NCBI RefSeq assembly: GCF_000516985.1
Contig: NW_006917091.1
Span: 2,105,770 to 2,169,769 of the forward strand
Length of the DNA stretch: 64,000 nt
From: Pestalotiopsis fici W106-1
Taxonomy: Eukaryota; Ascomycota; Sordariomycetes; Amphisphaeriales; Sporocadaceae
Direction: 5' to 3'
In this document: positions 7,401-49,527 of the stretch, in pieces
Layout of the letters: each line of letters begins with the position of its first letter
Position numbering within the stretch: position 1 is the first letter of the stretch
Notes under the pieces: model-generated
The model's database searches: none
What the model was told of the DNA's origin: nothing
Seen by the model: the letters and a program-made list of their open reading frames with translations, nothing else
Made by a program: the position numbers and the translations under genes

Positions 7401-8303
7401 ACTTATTATTCCGTTTTTATACGATATAAATTTTTTATTAATAATATTAAATACGTAAAGCGTTTTTTTTTATTTTTATAATATTTATAAAACGTTAACG
7501 ATTATTAGCGAAATAAAATTTCCTTAAGCTCCTGTATTTATTAAAGCTCGTATTTTTTAATTTATAATTTTAATCTAAATCGTAAAATATTCGTTAATAT
7601 TAGTGCTACTCGTAGTATATATAGACTTTTTAATCGGGGTCTATTTTTATCGCTTTAAAAATACCCGTAATCGTTTCCCGAATTCTTATTAATCTGTTTA
7701 TTAGCTCGTCGCATTTCGGCGGCCGTATATAATTATTATTTTAATAAGCTTAAATTTTTTTTAGCTTATAAGGGTCGATTTCCGTATTATTTAAATAATT
7801 CGCTTATTTTTTATTATATATCGGGGATATTTCCTTATTTTTTATCGTCCCTAAAAGGTTTTTTTAGCTCTTTATATTTTTAATATATAAAATATAAGCT
7901 AATCGTAGTCCTAATATAGGTTTCTCCCGTTTTTTTATTATTCTAATAATTAATCGTAATAATAAATTAGCTATTAAATATATAAATAATTCGTATCCGT
8001 CGTTTATAGCTCGTATTAAATTTTCGGCATTATCGTTTTTTAATTAAATAATTATAACGCGGATACGTCTTATTACCTTATATTTTTTAAAAAAATACTA
8101 TACTTTAATCTTCTCGGTTACGTAATATTCGCAATTATAATATAGGCATTTTTCCTATTTCCTATCCCCATTTCTTAAATATCGGTCTAAATCTTATAAT
8201 CGTATATAAAGTATTACAAATCCTCGAAAATCGATATAATTAATCTTTATATTTTCTATTTCTCCCGCCTTAAAAAAATAATAAATAACGTTTTTATTAT
8301 ATC

Positions 8304-9046: not shown

Positions 9047-9594
9047 CCTATATAACTTATCCTATTTAGGCTTCGCGTATAAAAAAAGTGGTTTCCCTTT
9101 TTTTAAATACGCGGATCTCTTTAACTAATTCCAAATATTAATTTTTAATTAATTCGAAATTATCTTTTTTTATCTCTTACGCAAGCGAGCGCTAAAGGTA
9201 TTTAAATAAAAAAAAAAGTTTTCCCGGCTAACAATATTCTACTAAATATTACTCGAGGTTTCTTTTAAAGGTAACGTACCTAAATAAAAATAATCAAAAT
9301 ATAACGATTATACTACGGGTTTCTAAAATAAACCGGAAATATAAAAGGTATTAGGGTTTATATTAACAAAAAACGATAATTTCGAAAAAAAATACTAAAT
9401 AATAAATATCTAAAAATAAAGGTAATTAAACTAATTTATAAATATAATCGTTAAAGCGTATTAAATATTTTATTTATAGGTAAAATAAATGCTTAAATTA
9501 ATTACTAAAATAATAATTATTTATATAAAAAATCCTTTTATAATATATATTTATTTATTCCCTTATTAATATCCTTAAATCACCTTTTTATTAA
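9047..9594. other. AT-rich remnant sequence, probably gypsy gag/leader
   Basis: No intact frame. By continuity across the 8304-9046 insertion this is probably the upstream part of the minus-strand gypsy element. No LTR boundary is visible. Confidence 0.4.
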
Positions 9595-9743
9595 TGTTGG
9601 GCGTAGCCCAACACAATGACTAAGCAGATGACTAAGCGCGCAACGCTTAGCGTTGCTATATAATAGATTGGCCTACGGCCAATCCGTAGATAGGAAATGC
9701 ATGCTTCTACCACACTCTCTCTATGACCCAATGGTGCCTAACA
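9595..9743 (+). repeat. Solo LTR, 149-bp TRIM/chromovirus family
   Basis: Starts TGTTGGGCGTAGCCCAACAC and ends GGTGCCTAACA, 149 bp. It is flanked by identical 5-bp duplications ATTAA (9590-9594 and 9744-9748). It contains three hairpins: TTGGGC-GTA-GCCCAA at 9597-9611, GCAACGCTTAGCGTTGC at 9640-9656 and GATTGGCCTACGGCCAATC at 9666-9684. Little RIP damage. Confidence 0.88.
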
Positions 9744-10122
9744 ATTAATAATACTTTCGTTTAGCTTATTCATCTTATTATAAATTTCACTTTTAAATTA
9801 TTAATTTAATAATAAGCCTATTAATAACCGTTAATAGCTAGCAAAAGTGCTAGCCTAATTCCTATTTAAAATATTTGCGGCTTCGGTTCTAAACCCCGTA
9901 TATTGCCTTTTTAAGCGCCAATATCCTTTGTTTGCCGTATGCAAGGGTGCATATTCGTAACATCGAACTAACTTAAGTTAACTGGAATTAGGCCCAGTTT
10001 AACTGCCAGTTAACTGTTTGCAAACCCTGGTTTAATTATATTATCGGCTTTATAATCGACTTAATAATTTAAGGAATTAAAGCGTATCATCTCTTATTAT
10101 TAAAAACTTTTTATATTAAAAT
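9744..10122. other. AT-rich sequence with a truncated hAT-type end
   Basis: No gene. From about 9960 to 10029 it carries AACTTAAGTTAACTGG-type words and ends TTGCAAACCCTG, so it looks like the right end of a GTTAACTG-word element whose left end is lost. Confidence 0.4.
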
Positions 10123-10146
10123 CAGGGTTGCAATTTAATTAATTAA
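10123..10146. repeat. hAT-type left-end fragment
   Basis: CAGGGTTGCAATTTAATTAA followed by four bases, then interrupted by another CAGGGTTGG end at 10147. Too short to assign to a family. Confidence 0.4.
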
Positions 10147-10422
10147 CAGGGTTGGAAAACGGTAACCGTTAAGTTAACCGCGCTGCGGTTACTTTAACCG
10201 CATGAATTTTAAACTTTAACTTAAGTAACCGCAGCTAATTAAAACTTAAACTTAAAATAACCGCGGTTAATAAAACTTAAACTTAAACTTAACCGTAATA
10301 ACCGCTAATTATATAATATAAATAAAACTTAATTTAAATAAAATCTAAAATAAATCAAATAAATTTTTAACGCTAAAATAATAAGATTAATATTAAATTC
10401 TTTTTACTTTTTATTTTATTAC
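10147..10422. mobile_element. hAT-type element end, AACCGCGGTTA-word family (truncated)
   Basis: Starts CAGGGTTGGAAAACGGTAAC, followed by CCGCGGTTA/TAACCGC words for about 150 bp and then an AT-rich core. The first ~60 bp match the right end of 15937-16446 read inward. No right end is visible before the next element starts at 10423. Confidence 0.65.
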
Positions 10423-10690
10423 CAGGGTAGGTAAACTAATTAATAGTTTTAATTAGTAATTCGTAATTAACGAAACTACGTAGTTTTACTCAGCCTATTA
10501 ACTAAACTACGGTAGTTTTACTTAAGCTGCTAATTAATTACCGTAGTTTTACTTAAGCTGCTAATTAATTACGCGTAATTTTACTTAGGTTATTAATTAA
10601 CTACCGTAGTTTTACTTAGGCTACTAATTAATTACGCGTAATTAGTAGTTAGTTAAAGTTAATTAATAGTTAATTACGAAACTACGATTT
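10423..10690. mobile_element. hAT-type element end, ACTACG-word family (partial)
   Basis: Starts CAGGGTAGGTAAACTAATTA and carries repeated ACTACGGTAGTTTTAC and TTACGCGTAATT words. Its partner right end is not identified; it may be one of the ends at 15050 or 15682 with nested insertions between, but the flanking 8-mers do not agree. Confidence 0.6.
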
Positions 10691-11149
10691 TAATTAAATT
10701 ATTAATTTTTAAATTTAAAAAAATTCTAAAGGGAATTAATTAAGCAAAAGAAAATCTTTTATATAAAAGTAATTTTAATCTTTTTATTTTTATAGCTAAT
10801 TTAATAATTCAATTATAATAAATATCAGTTTAAGCTTTTTTAATAAAGTGTAATTTTATATATTAAAAATTATATTAATTAAACTATTATTTTTAATTTT
10901 TAAATATTTAATTTTAAGAAATCGAATTAAGGAAAATAAACCTTTTAGCATTCTAATTTATTATATCTTTTTTAATTAAATAGCTATTATAATAATTTTT
11001 ATATAAATTAACGCTAAAGCTATTAATAAGACTCCGATAATCTCCGAATTAGTCCGAGTTGTATTTATTAAGTTATTCATTTATTTTACGTTTTTTAAAA
11101 AAAACTCCGATCGAAATCCGAGCTTAATTTCCATCAGATTCCATTGCGG
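10691..11149. other. AT-rich sequence without recognisable feature
   Basis: Very AT-rich, no open frame, no repeat end. Probably the decayed core of a hAT-type element. Confidence 0.4.
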
Positions 11150-11445
11150 GGTAAAGTGAGTGGGGTCTTATCTTTCGATCCGTACGATATCTTTTTAACG
11201 TACGGATCGACGAATAAAATAACGGTTTTTAATCTAATATCTGGCTATAAAGTAGGGTAACTGGGATTTTATCTTTCGATCCGTACGATATCTTTTTAAC
11301 GTCCCGATCAACGAATAAAACACCACCTATTAATCTAATATCTAGTTATAAAGTAAATTAACTAGGGTCTTAAACCCCTCGATCCCCGTGATATCTTTTT
11401 AACGTCTGGATCAACGAATAAAATAATAACCGATAATCTTTTATC
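11150..11445. repeat. Tandem repeat, three units of about 101-103 bp
   Basis: The block CGATCCGTACGATATCTTTT plus AACG occurs at 11176, 11277 and, diverged, 11380, each followed by a GATCRACGAATAAAA box and an AATCTAATATCTRGYTATAAAGTA spacer. Spacing is 101 and 103 bp. Each unit holds the inverted pair GATCCGTACG/CGTACGGATC, clearest in unit 1. Confidence 0.8.
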
Positions 11446-11572
11446 TTTTATCCTATCTTTTCGGTAGTTTTACCATTTAATAATACTAAAATAAGTAATT
11501 TAAAATCCGGATAATGGATTTTACTTATCTTTTACCGTAAAATCCGCCAATAATATTAACTTCTTTAATCTT

Positions 11573-12120
11573 CAGGGTTGGTATTTAGTTAACTAATAAT
11601 TAACTAACGTTAGTTAATTAAAAACTACATTTAGTTTAGTTATTAGTTAATTAACGTTAGTTTTTAAAAATGCTAATTAAAACTAAATTGATTTAGTTAG
11701 CAGCTTGACTAAAATTAAAGATTTTAATTAGTAAAGTGATTAAAACTAAATAACTAAAGATTTAATATTAATATTAATTTAATTAATTTACTAATTATAA
11801 TAAAGATAATTAGCAGAATTAATTAATTAAAGCTTCCTTTAATTATTTACGTTATTAATTTTATTATATCTTTTTATAAATAATTATAACGTTTTTAAAA
11901 AATCTTTAGTTAATTAAAGAATTAACTAAAACTAAATTGATTTAGTTAGAATGCTAATTAAAACTAAATTGATTTGGTTAAGGTGTTAATTAAAACTAAA
12001 GTGATTTAATTAGCAGCCTAATTAAAACTACGTTAGTTTAGTTAATGGCTTGAGTAAAACTAAGTAGTTTAGTTAACTAAAAACTAAAACTAAAAACTAA
12101 AACTAATCATACCAACGCTG
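11573..12120. mobile_element. hAT-type non-autonomous element, ACTAAATTGATTTAGT-word family (548 bp)
   Basis: Starts CAGGGTTGGTATTTAGTTAA and ends ATCATACCAACGCTG. Exact 8-bp duplication TTAATCTT flanks it (11565-11572 and 12121-12128). Ends carry AACTAACGTTAGTT and ACTAAATTGATTTAGTTAGC words; the core is AT-rich. The same family recurs at 12579-13292. Confidence 0.9.
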
Positions 12121-12578
12121 TTAATCTTAATTCCATAAAATCCGTTCTTTTAATTTAAAATCAACGTTATAGCCGATTATTATGGTTGGCATTAAGTGTG
12201 AGCTTGAGTTAACTCAATTGAGTTGAGTTATTAATTAAACTCAATTGAGTTATTAAAAATGCTAACTCAAACTTAATGATTTAGTTAATAGGTAAACTCA
12301 AACTAAATCAATTAAGTTAAGTTAATAACTCAATTAACTCATTAACTCAAAGAATTATTAATTTTAATTAATAATTAATTCATTAAAATAATATAAAAAT
12401 ATAATTAAATAAAAGGAAAAATAATAAATAAAACGCTATATTTCTTTTTATTTTACCTGCTTTATTAGATTTTTAAGATTTATTTTACTTTTTATTAATT
12501 TTTATTTAATTATTTTATAAAACTTTCAAAAATAATTTTAAAATTAATAAAAAATAATAAAAATAAAGCTGTTAATGC

Positions 12579-13292
12579 CAGGGTTGGTATTTAGTTAACT
12601 AATAATTAACTAACGTTAGTTAACTAAAAACTACATTTAGTTTAGTTTTTAGTTAACTAACGTTAGTTAGTGAGGGTGCTAACTAAAACTAAATTGATTT
12701 AGTTAGCAGCCTGATTAAAACTAAATCAATTTAGTTTAGTTAATAACTAAACTAACTAAATAACTAAAGATTTAATATAAGAATAACCAAAATTAATTAT
12801 TAAGGTTAACCTTTATTATTATATAAATTAATTAGTTTAAAACGAATAAAATGCTAGTTTTACTTTATTTTTTTCGTTTTATATCGAATTTTTATAATTA
12901 ATTTAAAAAAATGAACTTTTAAAATAAAATAATTATTTATAAAAGGTAACTTTTTAAAAAATAAAAATAAATACTAAATAAAAAGGTTTTAATTAAATTT
13001 TAAATGCCTTTTATTTTTTAAAACTTATACTTAATAATGGTGTTATTAAAATCAGTATTTTTAATTTATATTAAATAAATTAATTAATTTTTTAGTTTTT
13101 AGTTAATAACTAAACTAAACTAAACTAACTAAAAACTAAATTGATTTAGTTAGGACCTTGACTAAAACTAAATTGATTTAGTTAGCAGCCTGACTAAAAC
13201 TACGTTAGTTTAATTAGTAACCTGAGTAAAACTAAGTAGTTTAGTTAACTAAAAACTAAAACTAAAAACTAAAATTAATCATACCAACCCTG
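12579..13292. mobile_element. hAT-type non-autonomous element, ACTAAATTGATTTAGT family (714 bp), nested
   Basis: Starts CAGGGTTGGTATTTAGTTAA and ends ATCATACCAACCCTG. Exact 8-bp duplication GTTAATGC (12571-12578 and 13293-13300). Its ends closely match 11573-12120; the cores differ in length and sequence. Confidence 0.92.
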
Positions 13293-13372
13293 GTTAATGC
13301 ATTATAATCCCGTATTTTTATTTAAGTTAATAATAAATTTAATTTAATTTTAATTATTTATTTTATAATTAA

Positions 13373-13521
13373 TATTGGGCGTAGCCCAATATAATGACTA
13401 AGCAGATGACTAAGCGCGCAACGCTTAGCGTTGCTATATAAAAGATTGGCCTACGGCCAATCCATAAATAGGAAATGCATGCTTTTACCATATTCTCTCT
13501 ATAACCCAATAGTGCTTAACA
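13373..13521 (+). repeat. TRIM 5' LTR
   Basis: 149 bp, from TATTGGGCGTAGCCC (RIP-changed TGTTGGGC) to AGTGCTTAACA. Same length and hairpins as the solo LTR at 9595-9743. Confidence 0.9.
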
Positions 13522-13523
13522 AT

Positions 13524-13534
13524 TGGTAGCTTGC
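13524..13534 (+). other. TRIM primer-binding site
   Basis: TGGTAGCTTGC, two bases inside the LTR. The first eight bases fit the complement of an initiator tRNA-Met 3' end. From CTTGCGG onward the sequence is also homologous to the end of the parental ORF, so the deletion junction falls inside or beside the site. Ty3 is known to use an 8-nt primer match. Confidence 0.65.
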
Positions 13535-13583
13535 GGACACTCCTACCCAGCGGCCATCCAAACGCCCTCGCAAGGTACGCTAG
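13530..13583 (+). pseudogene. 17-codon tail of the parental retrotransposon ORF inside the TRIM
   Basis: In the frame set by the homologous copies at 28403-28426 and 30010-30040, this reads LADTPTQRPSKRPRKVR and a stop TAG. The older copies have a C-to-T stop at the CAG codon and end earlier. The tail is strongly basic, like a nuclear-localisation signal; function unknown. Confidence 0.6.
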
Positions 13584-13723
13584 TCCTAAGGGATATAATG
13601 CACCGACGGGAACGGGAATAGCATTATAAAATAACGGGTTAATAATAACGAGATATTAGGGACTAAATAATAAGGATTATATTAATGCATTAATATATTA
13701 TAATAAATTAAAAAAATAAATTT

Positions 13724-13748
13724 AAAAAGAAAAAAAGGAAAAGGGAGG
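13724..13748 (+). other. TRIM polypurine tract
   Basis: An uninterrupted A/G run ending GGAAAAGGGAGG directly before the 3' LTR, the expected place for the plus-strand primer. Confidence 0.8.
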
Positions 13749-13897
13749 TATTAGGCGTAGCCTAATATAATAACTAAGCAAATAACTAAGCGCGTAACGC
13801 TTAATATTGCTATATAAAAGATTGGCCTACGGCTAATCTATAAATAGGAAATATATGCTTCTACCATACTCTCTTTATAACTTAATGGTGCCTAACA
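13749..13897 (+). repeat. TRIM 3' LTR
   Basis: 149 bp, starting TATTAGGCGTAGCCTAATA and ending GGTGCCTAACA. It differs from the 5' LTR mainly by C/T and G/A changes, as RIP would cause after insertion. Confidence 0.9.
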
Positions 13898-14124
13898 ATT
13901 AAAATTAATTATCTTTAAGTTATTGAGTTATTAACTCAAACTCAATTGAGTTAACTGAAACTCAATTGATTTAGTCAGGGGCTTGAGTAAAACTCATCGA
14001 GTTATTAAAATTAGTGAGTTTAACTCATTGATTTAGTTAGCACCCGGAATAAAACTCAACTTAATTGAGTTAACTCAAACTCAAACTTAAAGCTCAAACT
14101 AATTTTACCTACCCTGCCGATTAT

Positions 14125-14276: not shown

Positions 14277-15050
14277 CAGGGTAGGTAAACTAACTAGTAG
14301 TTTTAATTAATAATTCGTAATTAACGAAACTACGTAATTTTACTCACCTTACTAACTAAACTACAGTAGTTTTACTCAGGCTGCTAACTAACTACCGTAG
14401 TTTTACCCACTTTACTAACTAATTACGCGTAGTTTTACTCAGGCCACTAACTAATTACCGTAGTTTTTAGTTATTCGTAGTTAGTTAATAGTTAACTACG
14501 TAACTACGATTTTATAAAAATTCATAAAAGTTTATTATATTTTTAAAAGCTTTTATAATAATTAAATAAAAGAAGTAAAGGTAAATATAATGCGGTTAAA
14601 ACGGAATTTTTATCTTTTTAATATTTAACTAACTTAATTTTTTAAAATTTATCTTTTTTATTATTAAAATTTATTATTAAAATTATTAAAATATCAATAA
14701 TTATTAAAAATCGAAATAAAATAATAGAAATAAACAATTAATAGCTTTTTAATCGTTATTTATTAATTATTTAATAAGAAATTAAATATATTAATAAATA
14801 AGTTATTTTAATAATTAATTAATTTAAATCGTAGTTAATTAGTTAGCGTAGTTATTAACTAAACTACGGTAGTTTAGTTTTACTTAGGCCCCTAACTAAC
14901 TACGGTAGTTTTACTCAGGCTGCTAACTAACTACGCGTAGTTTTAGTTAGCAGCTTAAAAAACTACGCGTAATTAGTTAATAACTAAACTACGAGTAGTT
15001 CGTAGTTAACTACTCGTAATTAACTAATAATTAACTAAATGCCAACCCTG
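14277..15050. mobile_element. hAT-type non-autonomous element, ACTACG-word family
   Basis: Left end CAGGGTAGGTAAACTAACTA, right end read inward CAGGGTTGGCATTTAGTTAA, the same asymmetric pair as 8304-9046 in opposite orientation. Arrays of AACTACGGTAGTT words at both ends. Flanking 8-mers AATATACT and GTTATAAA do not match, so the two ends may not be one original insertion. Confidence 0.7.
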
Positions 15051-15872: not shown

Positions 15873-15936
15873 TATTGGGCGTAGCCCAACACAATGACTA
15901 AGCAGATGACTAAGCGCGCAACGCTTAGCGTTGCTA
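15873..15936 (+). repeat. Truncated 149-bp-family LTR
   Basis: TATTGGGCGTAGCCCAACAC through the GCAACGCTTAGCGTTGC hairpin, then broken by the element at 15937. It may be the 5' LTR of the chromovirus that follows on the same strand, but the flank (GAAAA) does not match that after the 3' LTR (CACCC). Confidence 0.6.
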
Positions 15937-16446
15937 TAGGTTGGAAATTATTTTTGCGGTTACTTCGTTAAATTTAAATAACTTAAAGTTAGTTAAGTTA
16001 CGGTCCGGATTTTTATTAACCGCAAGCGGTTACTTATCAGTTTAAGTTTAGGTTTTAATTAACCGCGGTTACTTTAAGTTATTTATAAATAACCGTAATT
16101 AACCGCAATATATTAATAAAAATAATTATAAATTTATTAATTTAAAAGATATTTAATTAGTTTTTTATAAAATTAAATACGTTAATTAAAAAGGTTTTAA
16201 TTATTATATAACTTTTATTATAAATATTTTTATTTAATAAAATATAAAATATTTTTATAGCGCGGTTACTTAATAATTAACTTAACTTTTAATAGCGGTT
16301 AGCGGTTAATTTACGATAACCGTAACCGCGGTTATTTTAAGTTTAAGTTTTATATAACTGCGGTTACTTTAAGTTTAAGTTTGAATTTCATGCGGTTAAA
16401 GTAACCGCAATGCGGTTAACTTAACGGTTACCGTTTTCCAACCCTA
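15937..16446. mobile_element. hAT-type non-autonomous element, AACCGCGGTTA-word family
   Basis: Left end TAGGTTGGAAATTA, right end GTTACCGTTTTCCAACCCTA. Words TAACCGCGGTTA and CCGCAAGCGGTTAC fill both ends. No matching flanks. The left half is collinear with the inward-read right end of the intact hAT but with CGCGG-type words in place of TGCAG-type words. Confidence 0.75.
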
Positions 16447-18423
16447 TATATATATAATATAAATATCGATTTCCTTAATAAAAAATTCCGCTTAATATCC
16501 GGCCTAAACCTTATAATATTAATCGATTTTTAAAAGAAAATTAAGCTAATAATACGCCGGGTAATAATAGCTATTAATACCGTAATTCCGGCTAAATTTA
16601 TAGCCCCCGTACCCGTATTATACGCGGATTTATTTAACGATAAAGGCCGTAATTATATTTTTACCGCGTTATATAACGGCGTATTTAATATAATATTAAA
16701 CGTAAATTCCGAAAAAGCAATATTAATGCTTAATAATTTTACCGCGCTTATTATATTAAAACGGAAAACCCGTATCGGCTGTATTTCGGATATAAACGAA
16801 AACGGCTAAATTTTAACTTTTTAGAAAAAAGGCTATATCGCCTAAATAGCCGCGGCTTTAAATTATACGGCTTTAAACGACGCAAATAAAGGTATATAGC
16901 TTTCCGACGAAATCGAATTTTCCGAAAAAATACTTTAATATTTAAAAAACGGTAAAGCTTCGTATCGCGATTTATAAAACGCTACTATCGCTTATAAGCC
17001 GGGCGCGGATTATAATATATTATTTTTAGGCATAACGCGGCCGGAAAACGTTAGCTTTTTAAAAATATAATATAGCGTATACGTTTATAATATAAATCCG
17101 TAATAAGCAAAAAAGCTTTAAGCTTTTGCTAAATATTTCGATATATTATAAACGGATTAGGGTATTATTAATACACCGGACGATAAAAAAATAAAAATCC
17201 GCTTAATTAACGGATAATAAAATTAACGTATAACCGTAAAAATATATTAGGTCGGTATAAAAGACCGCGCGGATATAAACGAAATTTTAAATAAAATATA
17301 TAAATTAATAAAAAATAACGGCTTAAAGCTAAATTAATAATTTTAACCGATATTATTCGCTTATTTTACGTTTATAATTTATTATATAAGCGAAAAAAAA
17401 AACGGCTAATTATCGATATTAGGGTTGAAAAATTTAGTTTTAGTTTTTAGTTTTAGTTAACTAATAACCAGGGTTGCAAAAAAGTGACTGCGCAGTGCAC
17501 TGCAATGCAGTTAACTTAACTGCATGATTTTCGGACTGCAACTTAACTGACTGCAGTTAGTTAAAATCCGGACTTAAACTGACTGCAGTTAATGCAGTTA
17601 AAACTTAAACTTAACTGCACTAACTGCAGTCAGTAACTGCAATAACTGCTAACTGCATAATAAATTAAAAGAAAATTAATTTTAATTTTTAAATAAATAA
17701 AATAAATTATTTTAATGTTATTTTTATTATATAAGTAATTTATAATTATTATTTAATTTTTAATTTTAATTTTATACGTTAAAATTAAATTATTATAATT
17801 TTTTAATGTTAATTTGCTTTAAAATAAACTTTATATTAAGTTTTGTTAATTTTAAATTATATTTTATTTATTAATAATACGGTTTCTATATTATTTTTAT
17901 TAATTATTAAGTTTATAATGTATAAAACATGGTTATTATAGCTGGTTTAGCTGTTAAAACTAGCTAAAACCCACTGGAATATGATGAAACCTAATGGAAC
18001 CTGCTGGAACCCGCTGGAACCATCCACTAAATCGGCCCTATAAAGTCTGTGGCTATGCCCTTAATAAGTTACAGGGTAACCCGGCCCGTAGAATATTCTA
18101 GAAATCGATCGAATTTTTATTACTTTCTTTAATTATAAATCAATTATATTATTAATTCTTTTAATTATAAATCAGCTTTATTATTAATTAACTTTATTAT
18201 TAATCGAAATAATTAATAATTAAATTCTAGAATCTTCTTTTAAGCTATATTTTGAATATATAAGCCGTCTTCCCTCCCGTATTTAGCTTTTTTATTCTTT
18301 AAGCTTTAATAAATTAATTTATCTAGCTTATTATATTAAACCTTTACTTTTACCCCTTTAACCCCTTTTATTTTATTTATTATAAAGTCTTTTATTTAAG
18401 AATTATTCTGTTTTATTATTAAA

Positions 18424-20364
18424 ATGGATTCTGATTCGGAAACAAATATTTCTATTACGGCCCCGGAAACCGACTCTATTGCCGAATCTTCCCAATCTCG
18501 TTCTATTAACTTATCTTTAAAATATATTAAAGATAAAGAAAACGAAGAAGATTTTCAACTTCCACCTATTGAAAAATCCGATATTTATATCTTTAAAAAC
18601 GAATTATTTACCCGGGTTTTATTACCGATAAATGCATCGAAACCCCGGGAAATGGAATTACGTTGCACTATGTAAGTTTTATTATTANNNNNNNNNNNNN
18701 NNNNNNNNNNNNNNNNNNNNNNNNNNNNNNNNNNNNNNNNNNNNNNNNNNNNNNNNNNNNNNNNNNNNNNNNNNNNNNNNNNNNNNNCAATTAATATTGT
18801 TGTTCAAACGATTTTGAAATTCTTTATTTCAAGTACCGAAGAAGATAATAATTTAATTATGGATTATATTAATTTATATATTCCATTATTAAATAATAAC
18901 GAACGGGTAGAAATACCAGAAAATTCGGATTTTAATAGTAAGTTTATTTTATAACCTTCTTTATTTTTTAAACTTTTTAATTAATAACTAATTATTTTTA
19001 GAATTAATTAATCGAATTCGACGAATTGCCGTTTTAACTAAATATTCGTCCGAAATCCATCGATTATTATTGCAAGGAATTGTTAAAGCAAAAGCCGATA
19101 ATTTACTGGACGTAAATTATAATAAAACAAAAATCCCGAACGGTAAGTTATTTTATTATTTTATTATTTTATTCTTTTATTAATTTTTTAACTAATAATT
19201 TATCAGATTCTTATATACGATGGAATTCAACTTATCGGATGTTAACGGTTATTCTTGAGCTTAAAGAGCCGTTAATTTATATTTATCGAAATACGGAAAA
19301 CGAAGAATTTATTAATATATTCTTTAACGATGCGGACTGGTTTTTAATAACCGAATTAAAACGAATATTCGAAATATTCGTTAAAGCATCCGTTAAATTA
19401 CAAGGAGAGGTTTATACGACTTTACCCCGTGGTCTTTTATATATTTATAAAATATATAAAGATTTAAAATCCGTTTATCGGGATTATAGAAATCAAATGG
19501 ACCGACGACCGGAACTAGTAAGTTTTATTATTATTATTATTTTTATTTTTAACGTTTTATTAATTATTTAATTAGGAACCTATTTTAACGGATTTATGCA
19601 ACGCAATTCAAGCCGGTGGAAATAAATTAAACAATTATTTCCCCCGTAAACTTGCTCCAAACCAGTTAAGATTATATAAACCGTTTATTTTAAGTGTGAT
19701 TTTAGACCCCCGGTTTAAAACTTCACATTTTCAAGAAAATGGATTATTATATTTTTATCCGTCGGTTTATCAAGATGTTTTACGAATTTTTCAACGGGAG
19801 TTTATTAAGTAAGTTATTTATTTTATTATTATTATTATTTAATAATTTATACTAATTTAATTAAAAGGGTAAAAGAAGAAAAAGAAGGAGATTTTAATCC
19901 TTTCGAATTAAACGAAAACACCGATATATCGGATGAAGAAGACGATATTTTTCTTAATCGAACAAGAGTTCGTATTGAAAACGAATGTGAAAAATATATT
20001 AACGAAGGGATTAATACAATCCACGTAAGTTAATTATTATTTTATATCAACTTTAATTTTAATTTTATTTATTTATTAACTAATTTTTAATAGGACGAAC
20101 CATTGGTTTATTGGAAAAATAACCAATTTAAAATATCCGATTTTAGCTATTTTAGCCCGGCGTTATTTAGGAATTCCGGCTACTTCAGCTGCTTTAGAAA
20201 GGGTATTTTCTATTTCAAGTTATATTATTTCTAAATCCAGAAATAATTTAAATCCGGAAACTATTAAGTCTTTAACTTTATTAAAAAGTTGGGGAGTTAA
20301 ATCGGTGGAGGAATTAAAAGATTTGATTAACGAAGAGGAGGTTTCGGAAGAGGAGGAAGATTAA
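18424..20364 (+). pseudogene. hAT transposase gene with one frameshift and an assembly gap
   Basis: Exons as read: 18424-18671, an exon after the gap ending at 18937, 19002-19142, 19207-19517, 19576-19808, 19868-20024 and 20094-20364. Introns share GTAAGT donors. The start ATG opens MDSDSETNISITAPE. The last exon carries the hAT dimerisation domain (LARRYLGIPATSAALERVFS) and ends in an acidic tail, EEEVSEEEED. In that exon the upstream frame (DEPLVYWKNNQFK) and the downstream frame (YPILAILARR) differ by one base at the A-run 20130-20133, so translation would fail unless this is a sequencing error. The BED finger and part of the core may be in the gap. Confidence 0.85.
18688..18787. other. 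Assembly gap, 100 N
   Basis: Exactly 100 N just after the first donor site of the transposase gene; size probably arbitrary. Confidence 0.99.
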
Positions 20365-20369
20365 TTATT

Positions 20370-20490
20370 TCTTTTATTTTATTTCCTTTACTTTATTTCC
20401 TTTACTTTATTTCCTTTACTTTATTTCCTTTATTTTATTTCCTTTACTTTATTTCCTTTACTTTATTTCCTTTACTTTATTTCCTTTTTA
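20370..20490. repeat. TTTATTTCC(T) microsatellite-like tract
   Basis: Repeats of CTTTACTTTATTTC-type units directly after the transposase stop codon, in the 3' untranslated part of the hAT. Confidence 0.7.
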
Positions 20491-20919
20491 TCTTTTATTT
20501 CTCTTTATTATTTTTATTATTATTATATTATATAATTACATTCCTTTTTAAAAAATAAATAAAACCGATTTTGAAAATATTTAAAATAAAATAAAATAAA
20601 AGTGCAGTCTGCAGTTAGTTTGCAGTTAACTTGCAGTTAACTGCATAAATAACTGCATTAACTTAAGTTAACTTAAGTTAATAAAATTCAAACTTAAACT
20701 GATAAGTAACTGCATGCAGTTAGCAAAAGTCCGGACTGCAACTGCAAAAAGTTAAGTTAACTTAAACTTCACTAACTAACTGCAGACTGCATTTTCAACC
20801 CTGCTAATAACTAAACTACTTAGTTTTACTCAGCCTACTAACTAAACTAAGTAGTTTTAGTTAGGCTGCTAACTAAATCACTTTAGTTTTAATCAGGGTC
20901 CTAACTAAATTAATTTAGT

Positions 20920-21548
20920 GTTCTAAGGTATGATTGGTGGATCATAAACTTAGGCACAGGGAAGCGTTCTTTATAATTCGTAGAATCAGGCCGTAGGAGT
21001 AGTTATAGGGCTGTATAACTGATTTATTGAAGCTTAAGGAAAGAATAACTAACTACGGAGGAATAACTACCTTTTATACCCATAAAATCAACCAATAAGA
21101 ACATTCTGGAATATATTACTAATAAACTGGATTTATAATCAAGTTAATTAGTAATAAGGTTGATTTATAATCCAAGAAACCATCGAAATCTATGGATTTT
21201 TATGGTGTGGGTTACCCTGTAACCCTGGGACCACTGTGGCCAGGTGCACTGGCCACACTTAGTGGGGCTTGATCCAGTGGAACGTTCCACTGGATTCCAG
21301 TGGGTTCCAGTGGCCATAGTGGCCACAACAGTCAACTACAATGACTTGTTGACTGTACAGCACTGTGAACAGTGGCTGTAAGTGGTGCTGTACTGACTGT
21401 AAGTTAGTACAGGGTAAGTTCCACTGATTTCCCATATATCGTTATTTAACGATATCTCGATGGGTTTTATAGCTGTTATAACGATATGATATGCGTTATA
21501 AAGCTAATTTTATGCACTATACGATGCTGTATTAACATCCGTGCAACA
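20920..21548 (-). repeat. Copia solo LTR (629 bp)
   Basis: Plus strand runs from TGTTCTAAGG to CCGTGCAACA, with the 5-bp duplication TTTAG on both sides (20915-20919 and 21549-21553). It matches the LTR at 3862-4489 along its length with fewer C-to-T changes. It arose by LTR-LTR recombination after insertion into the hAT-type element 17420-21987. Confidence 0.93.
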
Positions 21549-24379
21549 TTTAGTTTTAGTTAGCACCCTAACTAAATCAATTTAGTTTTAGTTAATTTTT
21601 TAGTTAACCAAAGAATTTTTGAAATCGTTATAATTAATTAAAATAAATATATAAAATAAAATAAAAGATATATTTTGATTAAAAACGCTTTTATTAATTA
21701 TACGTTATATTTCTCTTATTATAAAATAATTAGGTTATAAAGATAAAAATCAAAATAAGTCTTTAGTTATTTAGTTAACTAAAACTAAAAACTAAACTAC
21801 GTAGTTTAGTTTAGTTTTACTCAGCTTATTAACTAAAATCTTTAGTTTTAATCAGGCTGCTAACTAAATCAATGTAGTTTTAGTTAATACTTTAAATAAC
21901 TAACGTTAGTTAACTAAAAACTAAACTAAACGTAGTTTTTAGTTAACTAACATTAGTTAACTATTAGTTAACTAAATTGCAACCCTGATCGATATATAAA
22001 CGTTTAATAAAATTATAATAGCCGATACTTATTTTTTACTTTCGTAAAATGCAATAATTGCTAAAACCCAAGGCAAAGCTTTTTTTTTAATTATAAATAT
22101 ATCGGGTTTTTTTTATTAATTACTTATATACCCGGATAGCAAAAATATAATAATTATTATTTCGCTATAAGGCTTTAAAATATTTAATATTATATTAATA
22201 AAATATATAATATTTTTAGCGTATATTTAACGATTTATAAACCGTATATTAGTTTATTTCCGCTATTGCGCCGATTTATTTATCGATAATATTTTTATTT
22301 CGAATTATACCTAAAAATAATATTTAAAAAATATCGAAAAAGTATTTTAAGCTTTTAATAAAAAAAGCGTCGCTTTATCCCTTAATAAAATATAATTAAA
22401 ATTCGCTTTAGTTAAAATATTAAATTTAATAATAAACGGATTAAATATATTTATTACGGAAAACCGAATCGAAGCAATCCGTAAATTTAAAATACCGGAA
22501 ATTTTAAATACGTTAAAAAATTATATTAGCCTAATTAGGTATTTTTAATAATTTATCCTATATTATACGCAAAAAATTAAATTATTTTAAAGCAAAAAAA
22601 TAGCTATATTCGCCTAAAGCCGTAAAAATAATAAAATTTTTGAAACGAAATCTGGTAAAAAAAATAAATAGCCTAAATAAAATTTATTTTAATAATAATA
22701 AAGTTTTAATTTTTTGCAATTATTTAGGATTAATTATACGAGGTTATATATTTTATTTATTAGAACTTTAATAAAATAACGTTCGTTAAGCTCGACGTTT
22801 TAAAAAAACGAGGCTTTAGCATTATAATTTTTTATTTCGCTAAGCTTTAAAATAATAAGCATTTATACGTAAAAAATATTTAATTTATTTAATTTTTAAA
22901 TAAAGCCTTTACGTTTTATAAATTAGGCTATAGCGCTATTAAGCTTAAAATCGCGTATTTTATATAAATATACCGAATAAAGCGTATATAAATATAATTT
23001 TATAACGCTTTAATTATTATTATAACCGATTATTAAGCTATTAAAAATATTATATAATAAATAAATTTTAAATCCGTCGATATAATAAAAAATAATATAC
23101 GGTTAATAATAGCGTTAATTTATTTCGCTTAATTTAATTTAAATGTACGATATATTTTAGGTACGGTAAATTTAATACCGGATGCGCTATTTAGGCTTTC
23201 AACGAAAAATAGCGATAAAAATCATAAAACCCGTAAGAATATTATAAAATCGGAATTAAATAATATTATTAATAAATTCGGATATTACGTTATTTTTTAA
23301 TTAATTATTAATTTTGCTTTTAAAGCCCGTATTATAAAAAATATTAATAAAATAAAAAATAGGCCAAATTTATCGACGGGATATATTAAGCATAAGGCCG
23401 GCTTAATAAAATAAACGCCCGTAAATAAAAGGCTATAAATAAAAAATAATTTTTTAAGCCTAAAGTACCGAGCAAAATCGATTACCGCTATAAGCTCGAT
23501 AACGGCTTAATATTTTACGTATTATTTAATAAAAAGAAAAAGCTATATATTTTTTTTAATTGCGTAAACGAACTATTAAAAATAATATACAATAATATTT
23601 ATTATTTTAAACCTAAAAAAATAGCTTAGAAATTGCAAAGCTTTACGATTTACAGATTATACCGGAAAATTTAAAAATATATCGATTATTATCCGTTTTA
23701 CCTACGTAATTAGACGGATCGCGGATAAAAGCTCGGTTATTTTTAACTAATTAATATATTTAATTAGCTTTTTTATATTATCGCTTAAAGTTTTATCGTT
23801 ATTTTGCCGGAAATGCTATTTTTCGGTTTTATATAATATATTTTAAAATATAAATATTTTAATATTTGCTTTATAATTATTTATAAATTTGCTAAAAAGG
23901 CTTTTTATCCCGGGTTATATTAGGATAATAATAAAAAAGTAAAGCGAATAAATTATTAAAATATTAATAATATACGATTAAAAATGCTTTTTTCGCATTA
24001 TTTCGGATTATAACCTAAAATTTATAAACGCTTTTTAGTAAATATTTTAAGCCCGATACGGCATTAAAATTATATTAATAATTAGCTAATATTTTTAAGT
24101 TAACGGATAATTAAAACGAATTAATTAAAATATTAAAATTATTATCCGATATTATATTAAGGCGTTTTTTAATATTTTATAAAATCGTATAATTACTTTT
24201 TTTAGTATTATTTTTATAATATTAAATCGAAAATATTAAGCAGATTTTTTAATAAAATCGTTTTCGGGTTTAAACCGGCTATAATATTATTAGCGCTAAA
24301 AGTCCTACGGTATAACGTAAATTTCGACGCCGCGAAAAAAAACCTTTTAAACGGAAGCTAAGGCTATAATCGATTTTGC

Positions 24380-24930
24380 GGCCGACGTCGCTAAAATCCG
24401 TTATAATAAAATAAAAAATTTAGTAATATTCGATATTGGCGCCGAAATATATTTTAAATTATACCGAAAATGTAAGTTTTTTAATAATTTATTACGAAAA
24501 TAATTTAATTAACGCGTTAATTTATTTATTATTATACGTAAAATAAGCGATTTTATATATAAGCTTAATTTTTTAAAGTTTTAATAAATATATAAAATAA
24601 TATTCGTTAAATAGCTATTTATAGCGCTATTAAGCCTTAATCCGGTCGGACGGCGGCAAAAGCCGTTATTAAAATAAATTATCGTATAAAGCGACAACGA
24701 TAAATAAAAAAATTATAAAATTAAGCGATTAATTAACCGCTATATTAACCGCTAATATAAGCGATCGAATTTAAAATATTTAATTCGATAAAAAGGATAT
24801 TTCCCGATATATAATTAATAATACCTTTACGATTATTTTATAAAAACGCGATAAAACTCGTTAACGTATACGATAAATAATATAAAATAATAGCTAAAAA
24901 GCTAAAAATAAAATATAACGAACCGGTTTA
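24380..24930 (+). pseudogene. Chromovirus integrase C-terminus and chromodomain remnant
   Basis: Frame fragments KIRYNKIKNLVIFDIGAEIY, RVNLFIIIRKISDF and LKYLIRXKGYFPIYN resemble the GPF/Y-type integrase end followed by a chromodomain. Such chromodomains guide integration to heterochromatin. Many stops; no product. Confidence 0.7.
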
Positions 24931-25457
24931 ATAATTTATCGAAATTAATAAAAAAATAGCGTATTATAAATAAAATATTAAATATAAACGTCGAAATATA
25001 GCTATTAAAGCGTAAAGCTATTATAACCGTATAATTTTTAAGCGCTAAATATTATTATTTAAATATAATTATAAATTTAGCGCGCGCCGCGATAAAGGCA
25101 AACGAATAATTAATATATAAATTAAAGCGATAATTTTAAATTAGCATCCCGAAATACCTAATTATTAAATATATTAAATAATTTTTTATTTTAATAATAT
25201 TTTTTTAAAAATTAAATTATTAATATTTATTTTTATTTTATCGCGGATAAAATAAAATTTTTTTAGTAATTTTGCTATAATAATAGCCCGACGACATAAT
25301 AAATATTAATATTTTACGATGCTTTTTAATAATAATAATATTAATTCGCTTTTACCCGCGTTTATAACTTTCGATTACGGCGGTACCGTAAATATCGCCG
25401 TTAAAAAAATATAATAATTTAAAACGCGTTAGCTATACGTTACGGTTATTTTAAAGC

Positions 25458-26110
25458 CAGGGTTGCAAAAAAGTGACTGCGCAGTGCACTGCAGTGCAGT
25501 TAAGTTAACTGCATGGTTTTCGGACTGCAACTTAACTGACTGCAGTTAGTAAAAATCCGGACTGCAACTGCAAAAAGTTAAGTTAACTGCAAAATAACTG
25601 CTAACTGCACTTTGCAGTTAAGTTAATTAACTGCTAACTGCAATAATTAAATTATTATTATTTAATTAAATAAATTATTAATATTATTTATTTTATAACC
25701 GTTTTATAAAGCCGTTTTTAAAAGATTTAAAGCAATAAAAAGCTTTTAAAAATATTAAAAATTCGATTAATTATTGTTGGGCGTAGCCCAACACGATGAC
25801 TCAGCATATGACTAAGCCCCGCAACGCCAAGGCGTTGCTACAAAAGGATTGGCCTACGGCCAATCCATAGATAGCAATGCATGCTTCTACCACACTCTCT
25901 CTATGACCCAATGGTGCCTAACAATTATTAATTATTTTAATATTATACTGCAGTAACTGCAGGTAACTGCGCAGTTAACTTAAGTTATTAAAATTTAAAC
26001 TTAAACTGACAAGTAACTGCATGCAGTTAGCAAAAGTCCGGACTGCAACTGCACTAACTTAAGTTAACTTAAACTTCACTAACTAACTGCAGACTGCATT
26101 TTCAACCCTG
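25458..26110. mobile_element. Short derivative of the intact hAT, TTAACTGCAGTTAA family
   Basis: Ends CAGGGTTGCAAAAAAGTGAC and GCATTTTCAACCCTG match the intact hAT at 17469-20803. Exact 8-bp duplication TTTAAAGC (25450-25457 and 26111-26118). It lacks the transposase; about 500 bp without the solo LTR nested in it, so an internal-deletion MITE. Confidence 0.92.
25775..25923 (+). repeat. Solo LTR, 149-bp family, best-preserved copy
   Basis: TGTTGGGCGTAGCCCAACAC to GGTGCCTAACA with the 5-bp duplication ATTAT (25770-25774 and 25924-25928). It shows few C-to-T changes and keeps the hairpins, including AACGCCAAGGCGTT, where other copies have AACGCTTAGCGTT. Confidence 0.9.
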
Positions 26111-27540
26111 TTTAAAGCATTTTAAAAAGCTAAAAAACGCTATTAAGCCTTAATATAAAAATAATAATCCCCGTATTTACGAAAAATCCAGCTTTTTCGA
26201 AAATAACGACGCCGATACCGTCGCAAATAAAAAAGGTTATATATATTAGGCCCGAATATTAATAAAAATTTTATTTAAGCGATAAATTTACGATAAAAAT
26301 ATTAGCGACGTATTTAAATATTTAATAAATATTATATTTAACGAACCGTATAATAATTTAGGGTTATATCGAAATATTTTTAAATAGCTTATTAAAATTA
26401 CCGCTAAAAAAACGAATTTAGTTAAAATTTTGCTAAAATAGCGTTAATAAATATTGGTATCCTATTACCCAAATAATTTAAAATTATATATATTTATAAT
26501 AGCGTAAAAAAGGGATTTGGCTTTATATTTTAAAAAATAATTTATTAGCTATAATATAATAAATTAATTTAAATTACGGTTAACCTTAATAAAGCTATTA
26601 TTCCCGAATTTTAAATAAATTATTAAAAAGCTTACGTTTTTAACGCTAAGCCTAAAATAAATATTAAAAAAAATATAATTATAACCGCTATTATTTTCCG
26701 CTTAATTTAAATATATACGTTAAGCCCGATAGCTTTATTAATTTGAATAACGACGCCAACGCGTCGGACGATAACGCAAATAATATAAACGAAATAAATT
26801 TAATAGCTAATACCTTAGCCGCGGATTTTTACGATTAAAACGGCTAGCTCGCCGACGATTTAATAATTACGATTTACGTTATTAATTAATTAGGACCGGA
26901 TAATTTACCCGATAACGAAAAATCCTCCCGGCTAAGCAATTTATTAACCGATATAATTTTATATATCGATTTTTTAGCATTAAATAAGCCTTTTAGCTTT
27001 AAGCGCTTATATCGTATTAACTTTTTTATCGGTAAAAAGGCCTATAATATAAAAAAAATAATAATAATTTATATTAAAAGCGCTTTAAATTATTTTATAC
27101 CCGAATTAGCCGGCGGCTTTATTTTTTTAACTAAATATTAAAAAATTATAAACGCTAAAATTAATAAATTATAAAATAATAAAATCGCTAAAAATATAAT
27201 TATTAATTAAATTAAAATAATAATTATTAATAATAAAAACGTGCGAAATACGATTAATACCTTAATTTAAGATAAAATTAACGAATATTTGCGTAATAAC
27301 GATTATTCGAAGGAATGAGCCGCAACCGCTAATAATTACGTTTAAAAAATAATCGATAAAGCCGTTAAAATAGCTATAGCTAAGCGTATTTTAATACTTA
27401 AACGGGTTAATATATTACGATTTATTAAAAATAACGATTCCTTTAAAAAAACCGCGCTTTTTACCTTTAGCCTTAGCTATACCGGTTATTAAGCAATAGC
27501 TTATAAATTTTAAAGCTAAATTCGCTAAATATATAACCGC

Positions 27541-28252
27541 CAAGGTTGGCAAGATAACTAGTAGTTTTAGTTAGTAGTTCGTAGTTAACGAAACTACGTA
27601 GTTTTACTCATTTTACTAACTAAACTACGGTAGTTTTACTCAGGCAGCTAACTAACTACCGTAGTTTTACTCAGGCTATTAACTAATTACGCGTAATTAG
27701 TAGTTAGTTAGAGTTAGTTAGTAGTTAACTACGTAACTACGATTTTATTTAAATTATTAAAGCTTTATTCTTATTTTTAAACGCTTAAAACGTAATAAAT
27801 TAAAAGAATTAAAAATAAATAAAATGCCGTGATAACTAAGTTTTTATGGTTATTATAATTATTTATTTTTATTTTTTAAAAATTAATGATTTTTTAATTC
27901 ATTTTTATTATTAAAATAATAAAAATAAAAAGAATTATAAAAAATCGAAATAAAAGGATAAAAATAAAAGAATAACGGCGTTTTAATTCTTATTTATTAA
28001 TTTATTTATATATAATTTCATATTTTATATAATAAATTCTTTTATTTATTAATTAATTTAAACCGTAGTTAATTAGTTAGCGTAGTTATTAACTAAACTA
28101 CGGTAGTTTAGTTTTACTCAAGGTCCTAACTAACTACCGTAGTTTTACTCAAGCCCCTAACTAACTACGGTAGTTTTACTCAGGCCACTAACTAATTACG
28201 ATCGTAGTTAACTACGCGTAATTAACTAGTAGTTAACTAAATGCCAACCTTG
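27541..28252. mobile_element. hAT-type non-autonomous element, ACTACG-word family (712 bp)
   Basis: Left end CAAGGTTGGCAAGATAACTA, right end ATGCCAACCTTG. Exact 8-bp duplication ATAACCGC (27533-27540 and 28253-28260). The minus-strand copy of the same host sequence near 30175-30198 lacks the element, giving an empty site. Confidence 0.93.
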
Positions 28253-28621
28253 ATAACCGCTAAAAATATATTAATTATCGAAATATTTAGCGATATATTA
28301 TTTAATTCGGACGAATTAATCCCGATAACTTTATTAAAGCTTAAATTTAAATTTAAACTCGAAATATTTAAATTTAAAAGCTATAAAAATTTAATAAAAC
28401 AAAAGTTTATAAATATTTTTATTTAGCGATTATTTAAACGCTTTTGCAAAATACGCTAATTTTAAAGGATATAATATATTAATAAAAACGGAAATAGCAT
28501 TATAAAATAATAAATTAATAATAATAAAATATTAGGGATTAAATAATAAAAATTATATTAATATATTAATATATTATAATAAATTAGGAAAATAAATTAA
28601 AAAGGAAAAAAGGAAAAAAGG

Positions 28622-28770
28622 TATTAAGCGTAGCTTAATATAATAATTAAGCAAATAATTAAACGCGTAACGCTTAGCGTTATTATATAATAAATTAGCT
28701 TACGGCTAATCCGTAAATAGAAAATATATATTTTTATTATATTTTCTTTATAATTTAATAATATTTAATA
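28622..28770 (+). repeat. 3' LTR of the plus-strand chromovirus (149-bp family)
   Basis: Starts TATTAAGCGTAGCTTAATA and ends TATTTAATA; 149 bp and heavily RIP-changed. A purine run (AAGGAAAAAAGGAAAAAAGG) lies just before it. This links the chromovirus to the TRIM and to the solo LTRs. Confidence 0.8.
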
Positions 28771-29076: not shown

Positions 29077-29148
29077 TAAGGTTGGTAAAAAAACTAGTAG
29101 TTTTAATTAATAATTCGTAATTAACGAAACGTCGTAATTTTATTTACT
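29077..29148. repeat. hAT-type left-end fragment, ACTACG-word family
   Basis: TAAGGTTGGTAAAAAAACTA followed by GTAATTCGTAATT-type words, cut off by the minus-strand LTR at 29149. Confidence 0.6.
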
Positions 29149-30198
29149 TATTAAGTATTATTAAATTATAAAAAAAATAATAAAAATATATATTTCCTAT
29201 TTACGGATTAGCCGTAAGCTAATTTATTATATACAGGGTTGCAATTGAGTTAACTGGCAGTTAACTCAATTGAGTTAACTCAAAACTTAATTGAGTTTAG
29301 TTATTAACTAAATCAATTGAGTTATTAAAATGCTAACTCAAACTCAATTGATTTAGTTAGCAGGCTAAGTAAAACTCAATTGAGTTAACTCATTTGAGTT
29401 TGAGTTAATAACTCAAATAATTTATTTTATTAAATAAAATACTTATAAAATAGTTTTTTATTTAATAAATTAAATAAATAATAAGCTCATAAATCTACGG
29501 TTTTATTTTTCTTTTATTTATTTTATTTATTTTTTATTAAATAAAAACAGCTTTAAGTTATTGAGTTATTGAGTTATTAACTCAAACTCAATTGATTTAG
29601 TTTAACTCAAAACTCAATTGATTTAGTTAGTAGGCTGAGTAAAACTCAATGAGTTATTAAAAGTAATAACTTAAACTCAATGATTTAGTTAGCACCGTGA
29701 GTAAAACTCAACTCAATTGAGTTAACTTAAACTCAAACTCAAAACTCAACTCAATAATTGCAACCCTGATTATATAATAATGCTAAGTGTTACGCGCTTA
29801 ATTATTTGCTTAATTATTATATTAAGCTACGCCTAATATTTTTTTTTAATTTATTTTCTTAATTTATTATAATATATTAATATATTAATATAATTTTTAT
29901 TATTTAATTTTTAATATTTCGTTATTATTAATCTATTATTTTATAATATTATTCCCGTTTTTATCGGTATATTATATCTTTTAAAATTAGCGTATTTTAT
30001 AAAAGCGTTTAAATAGCCGCTAAATAAAAATATCCGCAAATTTTCTTTTTATTAAGCTTTTACGGCTTTTAAATTTAAATATCTCGAGCTTAAATTTAAA
30101 TTTAGGCTCCGGCAGGGTTGCCGGAATTAATTCGTCCGAATTGGACGATATATCGCTGGATACTTCGATAATCGGTGTGTTTTTAGCGGTTGTGCGTT
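29149..30198 (-). mobile_element. 3' end of a second chromovirus copy, minus strand
   Basis: Read on the minus strand: tail of the terminal ORF (30198 to about 30020), untranslated end, purine-rich stretch, 3' LTR (29838-29149, split by the element 29234-29768). It mirrors 28261-28770, forming a large inverted repeat around about 28.8-29.1 kb. Truncated at 30198 by a copia LTR fragment. Confidence 0.75.
29234..29768. mobile_element. hAT-type non-autonomous element, AACTCAATTGAGTT family (535 bp)
   Basis: Starts CAGGGTTGCAATTGAGTTAA and ends AATAATTGCAACCCTG. Exact 8-bp duplication ATTATATA (29226-29233 and 29769-29776), inserted in the minus-strand LTR. Confidence 0.92.
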
Positions 30199-49019: not shown

Positions 49020-49527
49020 GGCCAGGGACTAAATGCGCAACGTGTTTTTGCGCAAAGACGTAAAAGTAGGTAGTCCAGGCAGTTTGAAATGGAGATTGGA
49101 CGATTGATTTCTTGTGCGAACCTCGGTAGGTAGGTGTGTATATGTTGTACTAAAAAAAAAGAATACAGCAAGCTGTTTGTTCTCTCCAGATGGAATTAAT
49201 TGATCGTTGGGTGCAGCTCTCAAAATTTTAGTGGGACAGCAGGCGGGAGTTTGTCTTTGTACGTATTGAGCAGTAGGTAATAAGGTAGGTACTGGGTACC
49301 TGACGGAATAGCGCCGCTATCGCTCAACCAAACAAGCACTTAATTCTTCGTACAAATCACATGCATAATATTGATGCTATGAACTGGACTTGTTTATTTG
49401 CCCTTTAATTCCATCCTAGTCTGAGTGCCAGTCCAAGAAGATATAGATAGAAGAAAGGAAGGGGGAGGGGAAAAGAAATAGAAGAGAGCCCGGAGACGTG
49501 AGGTCAGGACTTTTGGACTTGTGCATC
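49020..49527. other. Divergent promoter region of SLX9 and UBA4
   Basis: Lies between two divergently read housekeeping genes. GGTAGGTA/GGTACC words at 49265-49300. No gene seen. Confidence 0.5.

Follow-up and report, generated by a model that had tools for sequence, protein, structure and literature searches.

Fungal TRIMs have been described in several publications. Seven Copia-related and two Gypsy-related elements are given in a portion of PMC4112212, further fungal TRIMs are described in passages of PMC5689174, and 113 Helenus families of rust fungi are counted in sections of PMC10886601. The definition of a TRIM in the relevant passage of PMC10886601 includes a total length below 1 kb, and a figure legend of that article states that some TRIMs form when an autonomous element loses part of its interior to a deletion. 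TRIM and LARD annotations are present in passages of PMC4646964; TRIMs are named once, in the background, in PMC3562529, and neither TRIM nor LARD is mentioned in the main text of PMC4905642. On strand-transfer errors yielding miniature LTR elements, a search of the literature by title returned nothing to the point.

Here, we analysed a 525-bp LTR-flanked unit in a 64-kb stretch of DNA (hereafter "the window"; C1:2105770-2169769 of a 51.7-Mb assembly in 20 contigs). The unit is a real insertion with TRIM-like anatomy, to be counted as one deletion derivative and not as a demonstrated mobile TRIM. The original prediction had regarded a structurally complete TRIM in a fungus as unusual. Neither half of that description is supported: TRIMs in fungi are already published, as the cited parts of PMC4112212, PMC5689174 and PMC10886601 attest, and the primer binding site of the unit is cut to 7 nt.

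Anatomy and insertion site of the 525-bp unit

The predicted anatomy, i.e., two 149-bp LTRs, a 227-bp interior, a polypurine tract and exact ATTAA copies on both sides, was confirmed in the sequence in each of these parts. The features are as follows (positions in the window).

13297..14118 (ends approximate), no strand assigned: host repeat split by the unit, a partial copy of a hAT-like MITE that measures 702 bp in two C2 copies
13368..13372, + strand: left target-site duplication ATTAA, seen in the sequence; occurs once where the flanks meet in each of five empty sister stretches
13373..13521, + strand: 5' LTR, 149 bp, lightly RIP-mutated (11 of 71 C/G sites changed relative to the solo LTR at 9595)
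13522-13748, + strand: interior, 227 bp, between both LTRs
13524..13530, + strand: shortened primer binding site (TGGTAGC), two bases past the LTR; its 7 nt are the complement of the CCA-bearing 3' end of initiator tRNA-Met
13528..13530, + strand: deletion joint AGC, present in the long element both in the leader and in the 3' interior
13530..13583, + strand: last 17 codons and stop of the coding-like tract of the long element
13531..13748, + strand: remaining interior; its homology is to the final ~220 bp of the long element's own interior
13724..13748, + strand: polypurine tract, adjoining the 3' LTR, seen in the sequence
13749..13897, + strand: 3' LTR, 149 bp, more RIP-mutated (23 of 71 C/G sites changed relative to the solo LTR at 9595)
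13898..13902, + strand: right target-site duplication ATTAA, from the sequence and the empty-site alignment

The unit resembles TRIMs in its total length below 1 kb (525 bp) with two direct LTRs of 149 bp, in its polypurine tract by the 3' LTR and in its integration with a target-site duplication. It likewise has no protein-coding capacity for mobilization, the longest stop-to-stop stretch in any of the six frames being 56 codons. An Rfam scan of window positions 9500-14000 (E up to 1) matched nothing tRNA-like or 5S-like in the LTRs; its eight matches were all to microRNA families below gathering scores, and none lay in an LTR. As RNA, the LTR at 9595-9743 would form several short hairpins, including a palindrome at its extreme 5' end, and its fold is more stable than those of shuffled sequences (z -3.05, with 0 of 200 shuffles as stable).

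Matches to the left and right flanks of the unit adjoin at nine places in the genome. Seven sister stretches, five of them from these nine places, were aligned with the joined flanks; these five read straight across the joint with a single ATTAA, i.e., the empty site, and the other two (C1:2097027 and C5:3577780) have a left side too short or too diverged for judgement. The empty site in five sister stretches thus makes the unit a true insertion, and the alignment, as a comparison of sequences, shows the ATTAA duplication directly. A random pair of 5-mers from the AT-rich block agrees with a chance of 0.006, and ATTAA accounts for 1.6% of the 5-mers of the block.

The two LTRs of the unit are 86.6% identical, and their 20 differences are all transitions (from 5' to 3' LTR, seven G>A, nine C>T, three T>C and one A>G). 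At one site both carry A, where the other 18 aligned LTRs carry T (14), G (both LTRs of the C12 copy) or A (two). A reading of this shared A as a substitution private to the pair was rejected, as the two other LTRs with A are the diverged solos at 25775 and on C14; it could be a RIP change of a C12-type G. The pair is consistent with one template and subsequent RIP, the basis being transitions only plus one shared site.

Chance or an assembly artefact, i.e., neighbouring solo LTRs or a collapsed assembly that joined the ends of a long element, would be in keeping with the repeat-dense AT-rich block around the unit and with this modest evidence for a shared template. Such an origin is very improbable, however, given the outer ATTAA with its empty sister sites, the continuity of interior and purine tract with the 3' end of the long element, and the interior C/G letters that match no other aligned copy.

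The left ~31 kb of the window is part of an AT-rich block at about C1:2096000-2137000, with GC-normal DNA on either side. In the right half, the closest named relative of a gene at 49498-50946 is from Pestalotiopsis sp. NC0098 (81% identity), followed by Seiridium (77%) and Truncatella (75%), which points to a host probably within or close to the Sporocadaceae. With a RIP-tolerant pattern, the core of the hAT-like MITE gave 41 matches on 8 of the 20 contigs, confined on each to one block (C1:2097163-2133455, with one place each on C3, C5, C11, C12, C15, C16 and C18); the reversed pattern, as a control, gave 0 matches. The end of C3 falls inside its MITE-core block, and no telomere array is present there. 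These AT-rich, MITE-core blocks may be candidate centromeres, a reading against which speaks C12, where the long LTR element (447-462 kb) and the MITE place (2.204 Mb) are far apart.

The LTR family and its long relative

A genome search with the 525-bp unit gave at least 22 matches (19 of 19 candidates scored), and one with the LTR gave at least 21 (20 of 20 candidates scored). Among the at least 21 LTR matches of this assembly, no second pair in the same direction and less than 1 kb apart was found besides the unit, so that the miniature form, of which a TRIM would show more than one dispersed copy, was found once. Exact 5-bp duplications flank the unit (1 of 1), two of three long copies and seven of eight solo LTRs (the exception being C3:6128887), a count that omits 7 of 23 LTR stretches of which one end only is visible or which are truncated. 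Related features of the window, and nested MITEs elsewhere, are as follows.

9595..9743, + strand: solo LTR, duplication ATTAA, the un-mutated reference for RIP counts
15873..15938, + strand: first 66 bp of the LTR after a purine tract, the truncated 3' end of a further copy
16445..28770, + strand: broken, heavily RIP-mutated 3' part of the long element
16445-17419, 21988-25456, 26111-27543 and 28253-28621, + strand: pieces of this broken copy, with its 3' LTR at 28622-28770
25775..25923, + strand: solo LTR of the diverged subtype, duplication ATTAT
About 25458-26110 and 27541-28252: nested hAT-like MITEs in the window
29148..30198, - strand: further 3' end of the long element, with its LTR at 29770-29838 plus 29148-29233
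29234-29769: 536-bp insert splitting the LTR of this minus-strand 3' end
C2:4330040-4330741, C2:4343854-4344555, C18:57818-58316 and C3:6136653-6137425: nested hAT-like MITEs outside the window

The LTR copies at 9595 and 25775 were correctly predicted to carry 5-bp duplications of their own (ATTAA/ATTAA and ATTAT/ATTAT), and the LTR family was mobile, as claimed. The claim does not carry over to the miniature itself: no second unit was found, and a mobile TRIM family is therefore unsupported. Two observations had been named in advance as counting against the prediction, and they came out on different sides: another pair of such spacing was indeed not found in this assembly, and the flanking ATTAA was found as an empty site.

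Other members of the family lie in varied surroundings. On C2, a solo LTR (4328802-4328950, duplication ATTAT) sits within a minus-strand copy of the long element, the pieces of which overlap by 5 bp around it. On C14, a diverged solo LTR of the family (88084-88233, duplication GGAGT) lies in GC-normal DNA outside the AT-rich blocks, and on C3 two family LTRs (6128887-6129036 and 6129119-6129266) stand head to head, ~80 bp apart, the first without a matching duplication.

Long copies of the element are found at C12:447400-462380 (duplication AAGCC), C3:6129119-6144367 (GAATT) and C18:57515-67759, the last flanked by AATTA/AATTT, which agree in four of five letters and form no exact duplication. 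The long relative has LTRs, a primer site and a polypurine tract. The C12 copy contains a nested insert from ~1232 to ~6488 that is missing from the C18 copy; the latter measures 10.2 kb including a 499-bp MITE, which by subtraction puts the element at ~9.7 kb. In BLAST against the 14,981-bp C12 element, unit positions 13375-13530 fell on 3-158 and positions 13528-13895 on 14613-14979. On this alignment, the unit consists of both ends of a ~9.7-kb LTR element, brought together by a deletion whose two sides overlap by 3 bp.

The prediction had also placed a probable parent in the window. Broken pieces of the longer element are there; no gag/pol domain was recognised in it, and a parent able to move the unit is unsupported. 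Of the matches in genome scans for RVT_1 (40), rve (7) and RVT_2 (83), none fell between the LTRs of the C12, C18 and C3 copies. On C2, two plus-strand pieces of the long element flank an RVT_1 match (4340782-4341249, minus strand), which is taken as a probable nested insert. By Pfam in six frames, no gag/pol was found in C12 L010:1-6512 (E up to 0.01 and 1) or in C18:58316-67611, a scan that leaves out the last 652 bp before the 3' LTR, 499 of them MITE. On the plus strand alone, none was found in C12 L009:2050-10000, in five shorter pieces or in C3:6129299-6135499, the part of the C3 copy covered; these scans gave a retroviral SH3-like domain within the C12 nested insert and a hAT domain within an insert of C3. 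With stops read as X, the positive control, a RIP-mutated Gypsy-like copy (window 5500-7500, minus strand), gave RVT_1 at 6.1e-15 and RNase H at 3.4e-19. The method can miss domains, since the C12 nested insert gave an SH3-like match only and is absent from the RVT_2 list.

In a shared-stop test, the long element had 6.3-8.5 shared stops per 100 codons in all six frames and 1 in its best 150-codon window. Copia controls had 0.8 per 100 codons in the coding frame, and their best window held 0 in 35 of 35 triples; Gypsy controls showed no clear frame (4.4-7.7 per 100), and their best windows held 0-4 across the 40 triples run of 56 possible. As the best window of the long element falls within the range of the Gypsy controls, a Gypsy-like pol may still be present in it. 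Near its 3' end lies a low-stop, coding-like tract (L010:5405-6580, plus strand) that ends 17 codons into the interior of the unit; this tract had no homologue among 4074 candidates, no Pfam match and no PDB match better than E 1.1, and a PDB search with one frame of the C18 copy gave an E 0.26 match only. A description of the long element as non-coding was dropped once this tract appeared; it appears to be a RIP-degraded element without recognisable gag/pol, with a coding-like tract present.

At window positions 17420-21987, the long element is interrupted by a 4,568-bp insert with an 8-bp duplication (ATCGATAT) and hAT-like ends, which a Dimer_Tnp_hAT domain (3.9e-13) marks as a RIP-degraded hAT transposon. 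It is a possible source of the hAT-like MITEs nested in long-element copies, which measure ~500-770 bp, have ends of the CAGGGT or CAAGGT type and carry 8-bp duplications, with ambiguity at some boundaries.

Origin of the deletion joint

Four initiator tRNA-Met genes were found in the genome by a loose pattern search, of which three were read; the tRNA 3' end plus CCA corresponds to the primer site TGGTAGCACCACTCC. With C>T and G>A allowed, the leaders of four long copies (C12, C18, C3 and C5) match this site over 13 nt, a level reached at 2 of 14,663 places in a scan of the C12 interior, one of which should be the primer site itself. The tRNA-Met-like site predicted two bases after the LTR of the unit is present, albeit over 7 nt only, versus 13 in the long copies, which places the joint inside the primer site.

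RIP fractions (C/G sites changed C>T or G>A relative to the solo LTR at 9595) were 0.15 for the 5' LTR and 0.32 for the 3' LTR of the unit, 0-0.27 for the eight solo LTRs including 9595 (four of them at or below 0.03), and 0.21-0.61 for ten LTRs of long or broken copies. At 66 C/G sites retained in the interior of the unit, 51-55% of the cells of seven other copies are mutated; possible RIP in this interior amounts to 4, 2 and 13 sites in three successive segments, the third being the purine-rich end with poor alignment. This lack of RIP where other copies are mutated argues that the unit was not cut from a heavily RIP-mutated copy, and the retained C/G letters argue that the deletion was early.

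We lean towards an origin of the unit as an internal-deletion derivative of a ~9.7-kb LTR retrotransposon, formed in reverse transcription and integrated once. The alignments show that the unit entered a MITE copy, duplicating 5 bp, and that it descends from the long element; we infer the supply of enzymes in trans and the reverse-transcription error, the latter mainly from the breakpoint at the primer site and the hardly mutated interior. During reverse transcription of one RNA, either a template jump or a faulty strand transfer at the primer site would have joined the 5' LTR and 7 nt of primer site, over the 3-bp overlap, to the last ~220 bp of interior and the 3' LTR. With enzymes supplied in trans, the product would have integrated once; RIP would later have struck its LTRs, mostly sparing the short interior. 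The cut primer site would probably not allow efficient recopying, from which the single state of the unit would follow.

The breakpoint inside the primer site, with 7 of 13 nt kept, counts for a reverse-transcription error; a random joint in the ~9.4-kb interior rarely hits this site (about 1 in 15, by our estimate, if only short-interior deletions are noticed). A weak post hoc lead in the same direction may be the recurrence of CACTCC of the tRNA copy at 13538-13543, 7 nt past the joint (chance about 0.01 in GC-rich stretches).

The main rival is in-place loss: a ~9.7-kb element would have entered at ATTAA in full length and then shed ~9.2 kb through end joining at AGC, leaving the unit as a relic without any movement in miniature form. 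Both readings predict the same duplications and LTR pair, no second unit was found in the assembly, and the joint has a 3-bp overlap, of a kind common in ordinary end joining. This in-place loss is a possible but unlikely alternative, as the 5' breakpoint lies inside the primer site and as the hardly RIP-mutated interior demands a deletion older than the RIP of those long copies that were examined. Against a reverse-transcription origin count the single junction, the identical anatomy that an early in-place deletion before RIP would give, the shared LTR A that is not private, and the C18 copy without an exact duplication.

A true TRIM family, in which the miniature was copied in trans and left one survivor, the others being lost, reduced to solo LTRs or missing from the assembly, would account for the TRIM-like size and anatomy; some of the seven solo LTRs with exact duplications could stem from miniatures, and half of the eight solos are low in RIP. 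This is improbable, however, in view of the absence of a second unit, the primer site cut to 7 nt, and the informative LTR site, which is T in six of the eight solos and the A of the unit in two of the diverged subtype.

A fuller version of the reverse-transcription reading takes the unit as a snapshot of the birth of a miniature, in which strand transfer went wrong at the tRNA primer site of a gag/pol-less element, with an interior short enough to escape RIP and with the AT-rich block as a possible centromere; the combination as a whole is possible but unlikely. A testable idea, namely that shrinking may protect LTR-element copies in fungi with RIP, draws on the interior of the unit and on the four of eight solo LTRs that keep C/G letters lost to RIP in the long copies examined. 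Short yet mutated, and hence counting against protection, are two of the eight solos (0.25 and 0.27) and the 3' LTR of the unit.

Comparison with described miniature elements

TRIMs and the unit have in common a short LTR pair, a short non-coding interior, a primer site, a polypurine tract, a 5-bp duplication and a relationship to a longer element of their own genome. The unit differs in being found as one copy, in its 7-nt primer site and in showing no sign of the miniature being copied. Helenus, as portrayed in sections of PMC10886601, is likewise fungal, with 5-bp duplications, a primer site and a polypurine tract, and some of its members use the 3' end of initiator tRNA-Met. However, the same sections place tRNA-like sequence in Helenus LTRs, whereas none was matched in those of the unit, and the families counted there are mostly multi-copy, whereas the unit was found once. 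The long relative is comparable to LARDs in its LTRs, primer site, polypurine tract, duplications and lack of recognisable gag/pol, and departs from them in the coding-like tract near its 3' end.

As an instance of TRIMs in fungi, the unit adds little, since such elements have already been described. Set beside them, what it contributes is a single breakpoint, cleanly defined, that links a long LTR element with its miniature derivative, together with empty-site proof of insertion.
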